This document shows, piece by piece, positions 3,350 through 41,576 of a stretch of DNA of 57,504 bases. Source of the DNA: Planctomycetota bacterium (GTDB taxonomy: Bacteria; Planctomycetota; Phycisphaerae; Sedimentisphaerales; Anaerobacaceae); contig JACNGQ010000425.1 of assembly GCA_014384025.1 (NCBI GenBank), positions 1 to 57,504 of the forward strand, in the 5' to 3' direction. The position numbers and the translations under genes are program-made. Positions within the stretch are counted from its first letter, which is position 1; every line of letters starts with the position of its first letter. A model generated the notes under the pieces. That model saw only the letters and a list, made by a program, of their open reading frames with translations. It made no database searches and was not told the origin of the DNA.

Positions 3350-4069
3350 ATGGAACTCAAAGGTAAAGTCGCAGTTATTACGGGGGCATCGAGCGGTATT
3401 GGTGAAGGGACGGCACGCGAATTAGCTAATGCGGGAATGAAGCTGGTGCTTACCGCCCGGCGCAAAGAGCTGCTCGATAAAATCGCGGCAAAGCTCGATA
3501 CGGAAACAGCCGTTATAGCCGGCGATATTACCGACGAGTCGTTACCACAGAAGCTGATTGACACGGCGACGGAAAGATTCGGCTCATGTGACGTGGTTTT
3601 TAACAACGCGGGCGTTATGATTGTCGGCAAGGCAGAGGACATTGACCTCGAAGCAGTCTGTAAGATGGTGCGTATCAATGTAGAGGCGGTGTTTCGATTG
3701 GCGATAATCGCGATGCGCCATATGATAAAGCAGGGCAGCGGTTACCTAATCAATACATCAAGCATCCTCGGCATGAAGGTGCGTATGACAACCGGAGCAT
3801 ACGCCGGGACGAAGTACGCCGTCGAAGCGCTAACCGAGGACCTGCGTATGCAGGCGTCCGGCACGGGTGTTCGTGTCTGCTGCCTTGAGCCCGGGCTTGT
3901 CGAAACACATTTGCAGGACCACTTCCCGGTCCACCCCAAGGACATGCTCAATATCAAGGCCCTGGTTCAGCCGGCAGATATCGGGCGGGTGATCCGCTTC
4001 GTGCTCGAACAGCCGGACCATGTGGCGATCCCGCGTATTCTCGTGTCACCTGCGGACCAGGGAATGTAG
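3350..4069 (+). CDS. short-chain dehydrogenase/reductase (SDR)
   Basis: A 239-residue classical SDR, the usual family length. It shows the Rossmann glycine motif TGASSGIG near residues 11-18, the NNAG structural motif, the catalytic serine in INTSS and YxxxK (Y-A-G-T-K). An arginine-rich stretch (TARR) after the second strand suggests NADP(H) preference. The start at 3350 is chosen because GGAG lies 7 bases upstream and translation begins directly at the Rossmann strand; a longer reading frame from 3080 is repeat DNA. The substrate cannot be told from sequence. It stands alone between two copies of a diverged repeat, so its context says nothing about pathway. Confidence 0.9.
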   Translation: MELKGKVAVITGASSGIGEGTARELANAGMKLVLTARRKELLDKIAAKLDTETAVIAGDITDESLPQKLIDTATERFGSCDVVFNNAGVMIVGKAEDIDLEAVCKMVRINVEAVFRLAIIAMRHMIKQGSGYLINTSSILGMKVRMTTGAYAGTKYAVEALTEDLRMQASGTGVRVCCLEPGLVETHLQDHFPVHPKDMLNIKALVQPADIGRVIRFVLEQPDHVAIPRILVSPADQGM

Positions 4070-4095
4070 CTTTCAAATGATTATTGATTATTGAT

Positions 4096-4196
4096 TATTT
4101 ACTATTGGGGTTGAGTGAAGGATTTCAAATTTCAGATTTGCCGGCTTGCCTTTATTTACACGTTTACAAATGTAATGCCGTGTGCCAGATCCTTCC
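4096..4196. repeat. diverged ~100-bp repeat, copy B
   Basis: Counterpart of 3017-3124, in the same orientation, beginning 27 bases after the SDR stop codon. It is preceded by ATTGATTATTGATT, part of the AT-rich element family also seen near 2996, 3277, 14699 and 43958. Confidence 0.55.
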
Positions 4197-4255
4197 GATT
4201 CGACTTCGCATTGCCTGGCTCAAGATAACGATATTATCCCCAAGGGAGAATATTG

Positions 4256-36130: not shown

Positions 36131-36973
36131 TTTACCACCGTCCTTCTCTATAAACGCACCTTCTCTAACCTCTAAAATTTATCGTCTTATATCCGGCTGC
36201 ACTTAACCCAGAGACCCTCGCGTTATACCCTTCGCACGCTGTTAATAAGCAGCTCATTCAAAAATCTCTTTTATGGGGCTATACAGATAGCAGGATATTG
36301 CTCTACACAGAAGATAATTGCTCTGTACCTGCGTTTTGGCCTAACGCTGCTGGCATTTCACACAAGTGGGTATTGGCCCGCCCCGGAAATAAAATCACTG
36401 TAAGTAACGAACTGGTCCGAATAAATAAATAAGCCCTATATACCGCTGTTGTGTTATACCAAAAGCATTACTCAGTCCCCTCGCCGGATCATTTTTATAT
36501 ATATCTTCTTCAGCTCTCGTTTTACTTCTGTCATAAGGAATTCCCCGATACGAAAAAGAGTAGTTCGCCTGATAGTAAAAACAGGTTCTACACCGATTTA
36601 CAGTCGCTTAACATTTGTTAATATAGGACTACGGTTTCGCAGTACTGTAAACATGGAAAATATAGAGAGTGGAAACAACATTCATCAACCTCCTTCAGGC
36701 TGGGCTTGGCAGTTCAGACGATATTGGGCTGGCAAGCCTGGCAGAAAAAAACGCGGCGATAAAGAGCTGCGATTAATATATTGATTAATCATACATGTAT
36801 TGTGGTTTTCAGCAGCTCCGCCGGGTATGACAGCATGCAAACAGCAAAAGGATTGAAATAAGGTTTTTTATCGGACTTTCGACAAAAAAACATTGGTGCT
36901 GTCCATACACAGGACCATACTCTCCGTAATGGAAAATATTTTTCCTTAACTTTCTGTTTTTCCCTTTTTTTTC

Positions 36974-37002
36974 TGGACATTCGGCTCGGAATTTGATATA
37001 AT
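36974..37002 (+). promoter_or_regulatory. promoter TGGACA-N17-TATAAT of the first PEP-CTERM gene
   Basis: TGGACA (36974-36979) and a perfect TATAAT (36997-37002) are 17 bases apart. The bases before the -35 (TTTTTTTTC) and around the -10 (TTGATATAATAATA) are shared with the promoter at 38194-38222. Transcription from here would give a ~255-base leader. Confidence 0.7.
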
Positions 37003-37136
37003 AATATACAATAAAGATGTTCCTCAAGGGGGGGGAGCTTATCCATTATTATCTTAACGATGTGCTGTTAGTTTATTCGAGACAATTCAAAAGAAAATGG
37101 GGGAGAAATATTAACTTTTACGGTATCCGCAAGCTT

Positions 37137-37162
37137 GGCCTGGCAACACATGAGTACAGGCC
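37137..37162 (+). promoter_or_regulatory. stem-loop in the 5' leader of the PEP-CTERM gene
   Basis: GGCCTG (37137-37142) pairs with CAGGCC (37157-37162) around a 14-base loop; a second GGCC follows at 37168-37171. The position, about 100 bases before the start codon in a long leader, suggests a structured regulatory RNA. No known riboswitch class could be matched with confidence. Confidence 0.3.
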
Positions 37163-37263
37163 CTGTAGGCCGACTGTCAAATTACAAAAGTCAGCATAAT
37201 ATTATATTTTTGCTTTTTTGTCGGGTGTGCTGAAGTAATAAAGTCAGAGGGGAATGAAAAGAA

Positions 37264-37875
37264 GTGAAGAAGAAGTTTATAACAATTTTTGTATTCATAG
37301 CATTGATGCTGTCAATCAACAGCCCAGCTGATGCAAGCATTACAATTATGGACATGGTTGATTCGTCCGATGGCCAGGCAAACACATATTTCAGCAGTAT
37401 TCCAACCGATACCGACAGCTCCCGGCCATCCTCAACGGATACCTATCGTTGGTGGAATGAAGACTGGGGCTGGACACATACCTTTAGCCCGCCCGGTCCA
37501 ACGCCTTCGGCGATAATTTCTGCAACATTGGAAATCAGGGCATGGGATGTGGACATTCCTTCTGAAATAAATATCATATTTGGCAGCAGCCCCAGCGGCA
37601 CAAACATAGGAACTCTTCAGGGCGGCGATGATATATGGGCAACAAGCATCCTGTCCCTCTCCCCCGATTTATTTGCCGATTTGATGGATGGGAATATTGA
37701 TATATGGATGGATATCGATTCTTCGAACACTTATAACATGGACATGTGGGCGGTAACATTGGAATCATCCAAGCTTACAGTTACTTACAATCCGATACCT
37801 GCTCCCGGCGCTGTTTTGTTAAGCAGCATTGGTGTTGGCTTTGTCGGCTGGCTCAGAAGAAGAAAAACACTGTAA
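37264..37875 (+). CDS. PEP-CTERM-type exported protein
   Basis: A 203-residue exported protein. It starts with GTG (GAGGGG upstream), has a Sec signal peptide ([17 protein letters not shown]...ADAS) and ends in a sorting tail: PAPGA, a hydrophobic stretch [12 protein letters not shown] and the basic end LRRRKTL. This is the PEP-CTERM plan with PAP in place of PEP. Such tails are recognised by an exosortase, which is not in the window. The body is a Ser/Thr/Asp-rich beta-type domain ([40 protein letters not shown]) of unknown role, with the pattern of small planctomycetal surface proteins. The last ~25 codons are nearly identical to those of the gene at 39189. Confidence 0.88.
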
Positions 37876-38085: not shown

Positions 38086-38193
38086 CGACTATTTGTCCTC
38101 TCCTAAAACCCCATAATTCCAACGACAAACTCATCTATCAAAGGTGACATTACTATAAAAAAAGGAGATTTTCTCAAAAATGATATTTTTTTC

Positions 38194-38222
38194 TGGACAT
38201 AAGTCATGGTACTTGATAGAAT
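38194..38222 (+). promoter_or_regulatory. promoter TGGACA-N17-TAGAAT, twin of 36974-37002
   Basis: TGGACA (38194-38199), 17 bases, TAGAAT (38217-38222). The flanks TTTTTTTC before the -35 and TTGATA.AATAATA around the -10 match the promoter upstream of the first PEP-CTERM gene. It would drive the exported-protein gene at 38334. Confidence 0.68.
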
Positions 38223-38333
38223 AATAGCCTATAAGGACAATCCTCTTTGGAGGAGGATTATCACGTTTATTATAGTACGTTACTTTGCTTGGTTGATAGT
38301 GCGCTAATCTCCAAAATAGTAAAGGAGCGAGGA

Positions 38334-38957
38334 GTGAGGTCAGGAAAGAATAGCATATTTCTGATTATTTTTGTGTCGCTTATCGCGGCCACGACCGTGA
38401 GCGCTGCACCAGCAATCACCTGCCCAGCTCCAAAAACACACATCCTCGAAATACCTGGAAAAAGCAACATTACCGAAATTTACAATTGCGCCATGGCGGC
38501 TATCGGCACAGATATTGTAATCCCGCCCGCCGAGTTCACAAACTCGTCATCCGCCGGCGCCGGGACCTTCAATCCTAACACAACGGTTTTTATAGTCCTA
38601 ACTGGATTCCTCTGTGTTTCATTGGTAATTGACCGCAAACTCTGGCTGGCAACTTTGACTGCTCCGCAGCAGCCTGGTCAAAGTGGATTGTATTCTATCC
38701 CACAATCAACTGGAATACCGGCCGGAATTATAACTTTCCCATCCTATATTAGCACGCACGATACAAACCGACAGAAACACAATATTCAACACGCAATATG
38801 CATTACGAATGCAGTTCTTAAATTCGCTATAAAGCACTTTTCATCCTTACACAAACCCGCATTGATATGTATGGCTTTGAGTTATGAGCAGAACAAATCT
38901 TTTTCACCAGCTTTTATTTTTGTTCGATTAGCTCGCGGCCCGCCTATCCTGACCTGA
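38334..38957 (+). CDS. exported protein of unknown family with internal hydrophobic anchor
   Basis: A 207-residue protein starting with GTG, chosen because AAAGGAG lies 6-7 bases upstream and a Sec signal peptide follows directly (SIFLIIFVSLIAATTVSAAP). After ~60 mature residues there is FNPNTTVFIVLTGFLCVSLV followed by the basic DRKLW. This has the plan short motif, hydrophobic stretch, basic cluster, as in sorting tails, but it is internal. About 100 further residues follow, rich in His, Ile and Pro, ending LARGPPILT. I recognise no family. It lies between two PEP-CTERM genes and shares a promoter with the first. The C-terminal part could be read-through of a decayed gene, so the full length is less certain than the N-terminus. 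Confidence 0.6.
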   Translation: MRSGKNSIFLIIFVSLIAATTVSAAPAITCPAPKTHILEIPGKSNITEIYNCAMAAIGTDIVIPPAEFTNSSSAGAGTFNPNTTVFIVLTGFLCVSLVIDRKLWLATLTAPQQPGQSGLYSIPQSTGIPAGIITFPSYISTHDTNRQKHNIQHAICITNAVLKFAIKHFSSLHKPALICMALSYEQNKSFSPAFIFVRLARGPPILT

Positions 38958-38966
38958 GAACTAATA

Positions 38967-39024
38967 TTAACCTTCATTTCGTAAAGGGGTACTAGCGCGC
39001 TACTCCTTTAGGCAGTAAGGTTGA
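38967..39024. promoter_or_regulatory. nested stem-loop between exported-protein genes
   Basis: TTAACCTT (38967-38974) pairs with AAGGTTGA (39017-39024, one G.U); inside it TAAAGG (38982-38987) pairs with CCTTTA (39005-39010), and TAGCGCGCTA (38993-39002) is itself a palindrome. It starts 10 bases after the upstream stop codon and lies 165 bases before the next gene. No T-run follows, so terminator or leader structure is open. Confidence 0.5.
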
Positions 39025-39188
39025 TATGCTTCTTATTTGTGACCCTCCACGTACAAAATAAAGAAGAATATTGGAGTAAACGAATAGTAAAGGAGAAATG
39101 AAAAAAAATATGTATTTCCAAAAAACATGAAATTGAATTTAACGAATCTCATTTTTCACAATGATAAGTGAGAGGAGGAGTTGAACTG

Positions 39189-39815
39189 ATGAAAAAGAAA
39201 TTAATGATATTATGTATAGCATTGAGTTTGGCACTTGCGGCGCCATCATTCGCAGCGCCCACTATTATTGATCTCGATGGGGATGAGTTCACAGGTGTAA
39301 GTGGAAATTATACTTATACTACCCCCCCCCTCGGCTCGATCAAATTTGACGGAGAAATAATGACCCCAGGTCTATGGGTAGATACTGAAATGGTAACCGC
39401 CGGGTCCACTGGAAACGTATTCGACGTCATTGCTGCGAATACATGGGTCACATTGACTTTTGATTTCTCCGATGGATTTCAAGTCACGGACGTATCATTC
39501 ATATACGGTGGTAACGCTGATCGCATTATCATCGAGGCCTGGGATGATAGCTCTATCCCCATTATGCTTGCTTCACTTGACGCATCCACAGGCAATGGAG
39601 CTTCCGCCGGCCCGGTAACTTGGTATGCCGGTTCTGGAAACTCTATCAAAACCCTTAGATGGAAAGACCCAGGCGGCAGCAACCCCGAATTATTGTACAA
39701 TTTCGCAGCATTGGATAACATCAGCATTACAGTTATTCCTGCTCCTGGTGCTATTCTGTTAGGTAGTATTGGTGTAGGTTTTGTCGGCTGGCTCAGAAGA
39801 AGAAGGACACTGTAA
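39189..39815 (+). CDS. PEP-CTERM-type exported protein with C9 tract
   Basis: A 208-residue protein. AGGAGGAG lies 8 bases before the ATG. A Sec signal peptide (KKKLMILCIALSLALAAPSFAAP) is followed by a beta-rich domain (LDGDEFTGVSGNYTYTTPPLGSIKFDGE...; WVTLTFDFSDGFQVTDVSF) and the sorting tail [25 protein letters not shown]. The body resembles the jelly-roll-type domains common in PEP-CTERM proteins but is not related by eye to the body of the one at 37264. Codons 45-48 sit on a run of nine C (39322-39330), which could slip. The exosortase is outside the window. Confidence 0.88.
   Translation: MKKKLMILCIALSLALAAPSFAAPTIIDLDGDEFTGVSGNYTYTTPPLGSIKFDGEIMTPGLWVDTEMVTAGSTGNVFDVIAANTWVTLTFDFSDGFQVTDVSFIYGGNADRIIIEAWDDSSIPIMLASLDASTGNGASAGPVTWYAGSGNSIKTLRWKDPGGSNPELLYNFAALDNISITVIPAPGAILLGSIGVGFVGWLRRRRTL
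39322..39330. repeat. C9 homopolymer inside a PEP-CTERM gene
   Basis: Nine consecutive C lie early in the coding sequence (Thr-Pro-Pro-Leu codons). One-base slippage would shift the frame upstream of the sorting tail. Confidence 0.9.
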
Positions 39816-39924: not shown

Positions 39925-40734
39925 TCAAACAAGTGAAGGTTGACGCCAGTTTCCAATGCTATCCCACCAAACACCAATGTAATCAACAACAGGCTTATTC
40001 CTTTCTTTAGCTAAGTCTATCGCCATATCGCGAAGCTCACTCATACAGCTTAGCCCCCCAATTTGCCATGCTTGTACGCCTATTCCAACGGCCTCACATT
40101 CTATCTTCTTGAAGTCAATCTCATCATCAGCCAACATTCCTGCTAATATTTCAGCCTTCGGTTTTAACACTTCCCGCCATTGCTGACGCTGCTGTTCTTC
40201 TTTTACAAATACATCTTTTAACAAACTCTCATGGCTCTCTTGCCTTGTTTGCCGCAGAGCTTTAGCCCGGGCAATCCGCTGTGATCGATGCCTTCGGCTC
40301 ACAGAGGGCAAGAGCATCTCCAGCAACCCGATTAAAGGGTCAACAATCACCCATACCAAAAACGTCATCCCCAATGTTCCTAATGCAACCCCCGATGCGA
40401 ATTGGCCAACTGTACTGATGCCTATCATTCCGAGGCAACCCGCAAATCCGCCCAAAAGAGGCGTTATCACATAAAATACCCTATAATAACTCGTGCTGGT
40501 AAGTTGGTGTTCTATTTGCACCTTTTGGCTGCTGCTAATCCCTCTGAAAATTGCAAATAAATACAGACTAATTAATATCAGAGCTATTAACAAACCGTGC
40601 CCGGACAGAGAAAATACAATCCACCAACGAACACCCGCCTGCCTTAACGTTAAAATTAAAATATAAACGATGCAAATGATGAACCAGACTGTGCTGGTTA
40701 GATGAATTAACTGCAATGTCCTCTGTCTGGACAT
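39925..40734 (-). CDS. membrane protein of unknown function
   Basis: A 269-residue protein. Four hydrophobic segments fill the first ~145 residues (STVWFIICIVYILILTL; LIALILISLYLFAIF; VFYVITPLLGGFAGCLGMIG; GTLGMTFLVWVIVDPLIGLL). A basic, Gln/Arg-rich cytoplasmic part follows (RRHRSQRIARAKALRQTRQE) and a small folded C-terminal domain (IECEAVGIGVQAWQIGG). I recognise no family. GAGGGGA lies 9 bases before the ATG at 40734; a GTG six codons earlier is possible. It is 71 bases downstream of the export lipoprotein on the same strand, so the two may form a unit. Confidence 0.7.
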   Translation of the reverse strand: MSRQRTLQLIHLTSTVWFIICIVYILILTLRQAGVRWWIVFSLSGHGLLIALILISLYLFAIFRGISSSQKVQIEHQLTSTSYYRVFYVITPLLGGFAGCLGMIGISTVGQFASGVALGTLGMTFLVWVIVDPLIGLLEMLLPSVSRRHRSQRIARAKALRQTRQESHESLLKDVFVKEEQQRQQWREVLKPKAEILAGMLADDEIDFKKIECEAVGIGVQAWQIGGLSCMSELRDMAIDLAKERNKPVVDYIGVWWDSIGNWRQPSLV

Positions 40735-40805
40735 GATTATATGTCCCCTCACAACCCTGCCCGCCTTATCAACTTCTTATATAAGTACTGTTGCTTGAAA
40801 ACTTA

Positions 40806-41576
40806 TCAATACCTTTGGCCGCCGTAGTACCCTGTGCCCTGGTAACCTCCGGTTGCGGCTCTCTCAGCCATATAAGCCCCGGACAATGCCCGGCCAAGCG
40901 GCGTAATGAACTCTTCGAGCTTCATTGCTATAGCAGCTAATATCGTAGGCGGCACAAAAACTACATCGTCTTCCTGCAATAACACATCTTTACTCATTTC
41001 GCCATGAGCGCCCATGCGGTCCCAATTCACTTCAAAAATTTTGGCCTTAACATTTTCATCTCTCGACGGTCTAATTACCTGGATACGGTCCACCCAGGCC
41101 AGATTAGTGGGTTGTGCATAAGCAAGAGCACTGAATAGTGTATCACGGCCGGAATAGACTTTCGGTCCGGGGCGTGAAACCTGCCCCAATACATAAAACT
41201 TTTTGCTCTGGTATGTAATAATACGAATATTTACAGGATTATCACCTTCTAATTTATAAAGCTCTAAAACCTTACCTCGCAGGATATTTGCAAGTTGTTC
41301 AGGGGTTCTGCCCGCAGCTTCTATCTCGCCAATATCTTCAAAACCTATCTTGCCATCCGGGCGAATCAGCTGCGCCTGCCCGTTTATCTCAGGCACCTCG
41401 GAACAGTGCACCACAATCTGATCCGGCGGCTGCAAAATATAATTTTCAGATGTAACATCGACCTTATGCGGCATCAGATAAGCGTCTATGTCTGCCGGAT
41501 GAGATGAAAAACAACCTGTTAGACTAATCGTAATTAGAGAGACAATAATCATTGATAGTAAACGTAAGCATTTCAC
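40806..41576 (-). CDS. polysaccharide-export (Wza-like) lipoprotein
   Basis: A 256-residue lipoprotein (lipobox SLTGC). It has the poly-export domain (NYILQPPDQIVVHCSEVPE; IRPDGKIGFEDIGEIEAAG; LANILRGKVLEL) and an SLBB domain (KFYVLGQVSRPGPKVYSGRD). These proteins form outer-membrane channels for exopolysaccharide. No glycosyltransferase or Wzc-like kinase is adjacent, so it is an orphan here. The C-terminus is a Gly/Tyr-rich tail (GGYQGTGYYGGQRY). GGAG precedes the ATG. Confidence 0.92.
   Translation of the reverse strand: MKCLRLLSMIIVSLITISLTGCFSSHPADIDAYLMPHKVDVTSENYILQPPDQIVVHCSEVPEINGQAQLIRPDGKIGFEDIGEIEAAGRTPEQLANILRGKVLELYKLEGDNPVNIRIITYQSKKFYVLGQVSRPGPKVYSGRDTLFSALAYAQPTNLAWVDRIQVIRPSRDENVKAKIFEVNWDRMGAHGEMSKDVLLQEDDVVFVPPTILAAIAMKLEEFITPLGRALSGAYMAERAATGGYQGTGYYGGQRY

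Follow-up and report, generated by a model that had tools for sequence, protein, structure and literature searches.

In the window, that is, the whole stretch of 57,504 nucleotides of planctomycete DNA analysed here, an open frame runs from a GTG at 38334 to a stop at 38957 and encodes 207 residues. It lies between two PEP-CTERM genes, one on each side, as the initial annotation had stated, and its product is a member of a family without an existing name, called FAM in this work. The features of the locus are the following:

36967..37005, + strand: second copy of the promoter-like site, ahead of the upstream PEP-CTERM gene
37264..37875, + strand: upstream PEP-CTERM gene
38187..38225, + strand: promoter-like site of the FAM gene
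38334..38957, + strand: FAM gene (candidate arrest peptide of 207 aa; its GTG start comes after GGAGCGAGGA)
38334..38408, + strand: signal peptide region, residues 1-25 (...VSAAPA), from hydropathy, the family alignment and a helix at 4-23 in a low-confidence model
38574..38645, + strand: TM helix 1 plus IDRKLW, residues 81-104, the sorting-like segment, PEP-CTERM-like in relatives only
38901..38945, + strand: arrest-motif block FSPAFIFVRLARGPP, residues 190-204
38934..38945, + strand: RGPP codons CGC GGC CCG CCT, proposed stall site
38982..39010, + strand: RNA hairpin TAAAGGGGTAC-TAGCGCGC-TACTCCTTTA, one of a covarying family whose distance from RGPP is conserved
39190..39815, + strand: downstream PEP-CTERM gene, presumed target (ATG at 39190; GTG at 39168 also possible)
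39925..40752, - strand: conserved membrane protein that closes the array in most relatives, without a Pfam or NCBIfam match
40806..41576, - strand: Wza/EpsE-like gene for polysaccharide export, also closing the array (assigned to cluster c3; PF02563 and TIGR03027 match its relative)

The tails of the flanking PEP-CTERM genes read IPAPGA[VI]LL...GWLRRR[KR]TL. Exactly two copies of the promoter-like site, of the form TTTTTTCTGGACAT-N12-TTGATAnAATAAT, are present in the window (0 expected), and the count for the 6.7 Mb genome is likewise exactly two; they precede the PEP-CTERM gene at 37264 and the FAM gene. The shared promoter type noticed earlier holds for these two genes, but not for the PEP-CTERM gene at 39190, upstream of which there is no such site. 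Between its promoter and its start, FAM has a leader of about 140 nt (38187-38333) with a conserved CTCC-NNNN-GGAGGAGG stem-loop, followed in some relatives by GGCCATC...GGGTGGCC complementarity; comparison of the leader and the hairpin region with Rfam (E <= 1) gave nothing relevant. The promoter and leader of the upstream PEP-CTERM gene (36967-37263) resemble a duplicate of those of FAM, with no FAM copy behind them. On the opposite side of the array, the minus-strand membrane protein gene at 39925-40752 adjoins the Wza-like gene in 14 of 21 loci.

Relatives of the window copy within the genus share 72-78% identity, and the frame is open in three species. Among these sister species dN/dS is 0.4-0.77 over the whole FAM gene, 0.6-0.9 in the linker and 0.05-0.39 over residues 181-204, the last value resting on few sites; the C-terminus is the part under the strongest constraint. 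The identity to relatives and these ratios indicate that the frame is more than a chance one. The earlier description of an exported protein with an internal segment followed by some 100 residues was borne out, the sorting-like segment FNPNTTVFIVLTGFLCVSLVIDRKLW occupying residues 79-104 with 103 residues after it. With 207 aa, a signal peptide and a TM segment by hydropathy, the product is a small protein (<300 aa) with an N-terminal localisation signal. Its comparison with Pfam and NCBIfam at curated thresholds gave no match. AlphaFold2 models were of low confidence (pLDDT 60 for the window protein with an alignment and 46 for a full-length relative without one), so that their usable parts are the signal peptide and the TM helices.

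Distribution, architecture and neighbourhood of FAM

Profile searches placed FAM in one planctomycete order, with a single outlier from another class. About 30 clear homologues were obtained in a search of 148 relatives; 29 of 397 genomes of the class matched the profile, all from the same order, and two of 392 genomes of the phylum, namely the own genome and one from another class. The nearest named record belongs to a Phycisphaerae MAG. The own genome holds a single copy, and homologues carrying the conserved segment do exist.

Full-length members, mostly of 240-310 aa, contain, in this order, a signal peptide, the block SxLAxIGxExLxPP, the membrane hairpin LPAVPGALLMVLTGFLCVSLVKDRRVWLAALAGLLWLGQAGIxAxPQLA, the RSDIEG block RLRSDIEGTxYIGLLxHLAGIP, a variable linker and the last block FSPAFIFxxLARGPP, mostly with 3 more residues. 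In pairwise comparison, the mean identity reaches 0.60-0.73 in the membrane hairpin and 0.70 in both the RSDIEG block and the last block; it is 0.14-0.29 in the linkers and 0.20 after RGPP. The sorting-like segment is the first helix of the membrane hairpin, and a second hydrophobic helix comes next in the family. The window copy and those of two sister species have lost both this second helix (hydropathy of about 0 to 0.2 there, vs 1.0-1.9) and the RSDIEG block; two other species of the same genus keep both. The subgroup of the window retains the signal peptide, helix 1, the candidate arrest module and the RNA hairpin.

Several irregular copies were also observed. The linkers of L005, L010 and L014 contain in-frame stretches (e.g. 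SLRAQRSNL) resembling translated interspersed repeats. In L107 (G048:C81, ~3700-4200) a copy is cut off after helix 2 and runs directly into a PEP-CTERM frame, possibly by gene fusion or deletion. Genome G002 has two remnants of 43-44 codons (L036:41-172 on G002:C164, and L088, minus strand, ~699-820, on G002:C29), in which a signal-like stretch is joined to ...CSPAFIFQQLIRGPPNLT and a stop codon, directly ahead of other PEP-CTERM genes; one of them still has the RNA hairpin, and both look like internal deletions sparing the putative arrest module.

A PEP-CTERM gene follows directly on the same strand in 42 of the 45 FAM copies, which makes it a conserved co-oriented downstream gene. In the 21 large loci, the genes after FAM are PAPGA-tailed PEP-CTERM genes on the same strand, with one exception at a contig edge. 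An EPS-type gene set lies on the upstream side in 11 of these loci (Tyr kinase, sugar transferase, PrsT-like TPR protein and mostly a LuxR-type regulator), and a type II secretion (T2SS) gene set in 5, the window included. In the two EPS-type loci where the stretch reaches the exosortase, this enzyme is fused to a nucleotidyltransferase/hexapeptide part. L038:9840-11828, minus strand, and L055:12046-14043, on contig C47 of the own genome, encode an exosortase behind such a domain within an EPS locus and match PF09721 plus PF00483/hexapeptide models. No exosortase was found on the window contig; the exosortases and the EPS locus of the own genome lie on other contigs. The homologue from another class (L140) has an EpsI-like gene on one side and a PEP-CTERM gene on the other. 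In a same-genus pair, G055 has neither a FAM copy nor any PAPGA-type PEP-CTERM tail and G020 has both, which suggests joint loss or gain.

The neighbourhood, with exosortase/EPS and PEP-CTERM genes, is that of an exosortase-system locus, and the earlier suggestion of a new partner gains from it: FAM stands almost always directly upstream of PAPGA-type PEP-CTERM genes, in about half of the loci beside an exosortase/EPS set, and the other-class homologue has comparable neighbours. Accessory proteins of exosortase loci (EpsI, PrsT and others; PMC1569441) resemble FAM in this respect, many of its relatives adjoining exosortase, EPS sugar transferase, PrsT-like TPR and PEP-CTERM genes; FAM differs in having no NCBIfam or Pfam match and another domain architecture.

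The C-terminal RGPP motif and the RNA hairpin

The informative part of FAM proved to be its last 15 residues together with an RNA hairpin, which the initial annotation had missed. The 15-residue last block ends in an invariant G-P-P, preceded by a near-invariant R, in the identity analysis. A tetrapeptide of the form [RH][GASP]PP, comparable to RAPP, is conserved near the C-terminus in 42 of 45 copies: RGPP in 35, HGPP in 3, RPPP in 2, and RAPP and RSPP in 1 each. The copies without it are the truncated L107, L084 (genome G082) and L140. The motif mostly lies 3 residues before the stop; extensions of 6-48 residues past it exist in some members and argue against a strictly C-terminal signal. 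The R, G and P codons vary among copies, which makes the peptide the conserved thing. Such a motif is absent from the last 30 residues of all 262 neighbouring ORFs, which also have no RGPP anywhere, and the RGPP-containing ORFs ahead of other PAPGA genes were not FAM-like, amounting to a few short chance-like matches.

The variants found in the 45 copies are the set reported as ribosome stallers, since elongation is stalled by RxPP (x = Ser, Ala, Gly, Pro) and by HGPP (PMC7897499). The motifs of the RQH arrest family include R-G-P-P (PMC10987492). According to PMC12992588, RGPP is the most robust RAPP-like arrest motif, active with diverse upstream sequences, and the most avoided tetrapeptide in many phyla; RAPP/RGPP occur close to the C-terminal end of small proteins, secreted or membrane-bound, whose genes precede regulated ones.

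About 44 nt downstream of RGPP lies the RNA hairpin. In a profile over 31 loci, the mean folding z-score falls to -2.09 for the 46-nt segment whose midpoint lies 43 nt after RGPP, and is near zero on either side. The 8-bp stem is 82% paired in the 24 copies with a palindromic loop (of the TCGCGA or GCGCGC type), which anchored the pair counts; 7 loop-less copies were excluded from these counts, but kept in the z-score profile. Covariation is 0.60, vs 0.28 in shuffled alignments (0/500) and at most 0.32 when the stem is slid. RNAalifold over the whole 3' region (31 sequences, many gaps) found nothing. A covariance model run on 492 kb of loci found the hairpin at FAM copies, together with faint reverse-strand matches that echo its near-palindromic form and a single weak match elsewhere (E 0.14), another weak match, L093, being itself at a FAM copy; in whole genomes it was found at FAM copies only. 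The G002 43-codon remnant, outside the training set, keeps RGPP, hairpin and PEP-CTERM gene.

The spacing of the hairpin has an SD of 3.9 nt from RGPP vs 14.8 nt from the stop. Stop-loss mutations alone could give this difference, so that it shows only that a fixed place of termination is not needed and that RGPP and hairpin stay together. The reading of the hairpin as an intrinsic terminator was rejected, as the AT-type copies have no U-tract. Sequestration of the downstream ribosome-binding site as in SecM showed no consistent effect, the mean unpaired probability being 0.42 when RGPP carries no ribosome and 0.45 when it does; a SecM-type readout is thus not supported.

Translation arrest as the proposed function

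Taken together, the peptide motif and the variants it tolerates, the placement of FAM before PEP-CTERM genes throughout the family, and a covarying hairpin whose distance from RGPP is conserved point to FAM as probably an RGPP-type translation-arrest peptide, a regulatory nascent chain acting on PEP-CTERM genes, with the RNA hairpin taking part in the readout. Three parts may be distinguished: an N-terminal export signal, the membrane hairpin with the RSDIEGTxYIGLLxHLAGIP block, and the C-terminal RGPP arrest module. The export signal and the membrane hairpin would serve as sensor, RGPP as stall and the RNA hairpin as part of the readout. Elongation would halt once the first Pro of RGPP occupies the P site and the second the A site, at a time when the export or sorting machinery of the membrane has engaged the nascent chain; the stall, or its release, would then change the expression of the following PEP-CTERM genes. 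As the products of these genes are substrates and not machinery, a stall could serve to brake expression, to cause anti-termination or to tether the mRNA.

Some observations count against arrest: the other-class homologue keeps the membrane hairpin and a PEP-CTERM neighbour and not RGPP, L084, a member of the order, is also devoid of RGPP, the window copy is without most of the putative sensor, the genes after FAM code for substrates, and the RNA hairpin begins further downstream than the leading edge to be expected for a ribosome halted at RGPP.

Compared with known systems, FAM is likely a new RAPP/RGPP arrest peptide confined to its lineage, in which both the class of target genes and the RNA element are new. 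Like ApdA, ApdP, ApcA, the RQH family and the Streptomyces lividans set, it is small, exported or membrane-bound, and has R-G/A-P-P a few codons before the stop, with co-oriented genes directly downstream. Unlike them, it has PEP-CTERM genes as candidate targets, which the main text of PMC12992588 does not name, a large conserved membrane-hairpin domain and the covarying downstream hairpin. SecM shares with FAM a signal sequence, a downstream mRNA structure and an arrest block that can be set against FSPAFIFVRLARGPPILT; it differs in having RAGP and not RGPP, and FAM neither sequesters the ribosome-binding site of the next gene nor lies upstream of secA. No overall homology to SecM is claimed. 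From SecM, MifM and VemP alike, FAM differs in that the genes downstream encode substrates.

The combination of a stall signal, a position ahead of PEP-CTERM genes and a hairpin suggests that the cell may gauge export or sorting while making these proteins. A more specific version, put forward tentatively and in itself doubtful, is that exosortase (or the insertion route) probes the PEP-CTERM-like membrane hairpin, the RGPP stall and the RNA hairpin adjusting PEP-CTERM output to sorting capacity. Exosortase is named here only because of the PEP-like helix and the neighbourhood. In the literature searched, nothing joined an arrest peptide with PEP-CTERM proteins or exosortase with ribosome stalling, and no monitor of exosortase/PEP-CTERM sorting was found.

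Competing readings and significance

Among the alternatives, an ordinary membrane protein of exosortase loci, such as an accessory or assembly factor, fares best, although it appears unlikely: RGPP would serve protein function, and the RNA hairpin would be a separate element of mRNA processing or stability between two genes. The conservation of the membrane hairpin and the RSDIEG block agrees with it, as do the exosortase/EPS neighbourhood and the other-class homologue, which has kept the membrane part, the EpsI-like neighbour and the PEP-CTERM gene without RGPP. On the other hand, RGPP is reported to be strongly avoided and prone to arrest (PMC12992588), the variants found are those reported to stall, extensions of 6-48 residues past RGPP are tolerated, and the subgroup of the window has dropped most of the membrane part and kept RGPP and the RNA hairpin.

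In XBP1u, pausing tethers the mRNA to the membrane. A comparable stall could hold the polycistronic mRNA of FAM at the membrane, so that PEP-CTERM proteins are made beside the export and sorting machinery with no sensing of capacity. An array for exported proteins whose first gene encodes a signal peptide, a TM helix and a stall motif would suit such a tether, but neither the conserved RSDIEG block nor a hairpin at a conserved distance would be needed, and we consider it quite improbable.

It is very improbable that FAM is itself a substrate of the PEP-CTERM kind, its sorting signal being internal, or, as first suggested, a new type of anchor. In many relatives the segment does resemble PEP-CTERM tails (TIGR02595/PF07589), with PxPGAxLL, a hydrophobic helix and basic residues, as in PAVPGALL... 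and PAVPGALLM...RR. With an HMM of PAPGA tails, relatives with PAVPGALLM reach up to 11.0 bits, and about ten outscore every non-PEP control (other ORFs, membrane proteins included; at most 1.8 bits), whereas true tails that the tail pattern had missed score 35-48 bits. The window copy, which reads FNPNTTVF and has lost the PxPG motif, obtains no score. The sorting-tail build is real but partial in relatives, and absent from the window copy. Moreover, in contrast to a sorting tail, the segment is internal, the second helix and 100-170 residues coming after it in the family, and FAM has neither a C-terminal tail nor a Pfam or NCBIfam match.

Finally, decay of the gene in this species, to which the lost second helix and RSDIEG block and the linker dN/dS might point, is hardly credible, given a frame open in three species at 72-78% identity, the low C-terminal dN/dS (0.05-0.39) and the retention of RGPP, hairpin and promoter.

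RAPP/RGPP arrest peptides are already known to precede Sec, copper, TonB and other genes. If the arrest reading of FAM is true, exosortase sorting in planctomycetes would come under the same principle, and arrays of PEP-CTERM genes could be approached through a regulatory handle. The conserved spacing between RGPP and the covarying hairpin is a concrete candidate for an RNA readout, and the natural R/H-G/A/S/P-P-P variation provides an evolutionary check on the stalling rules derived in vitro.
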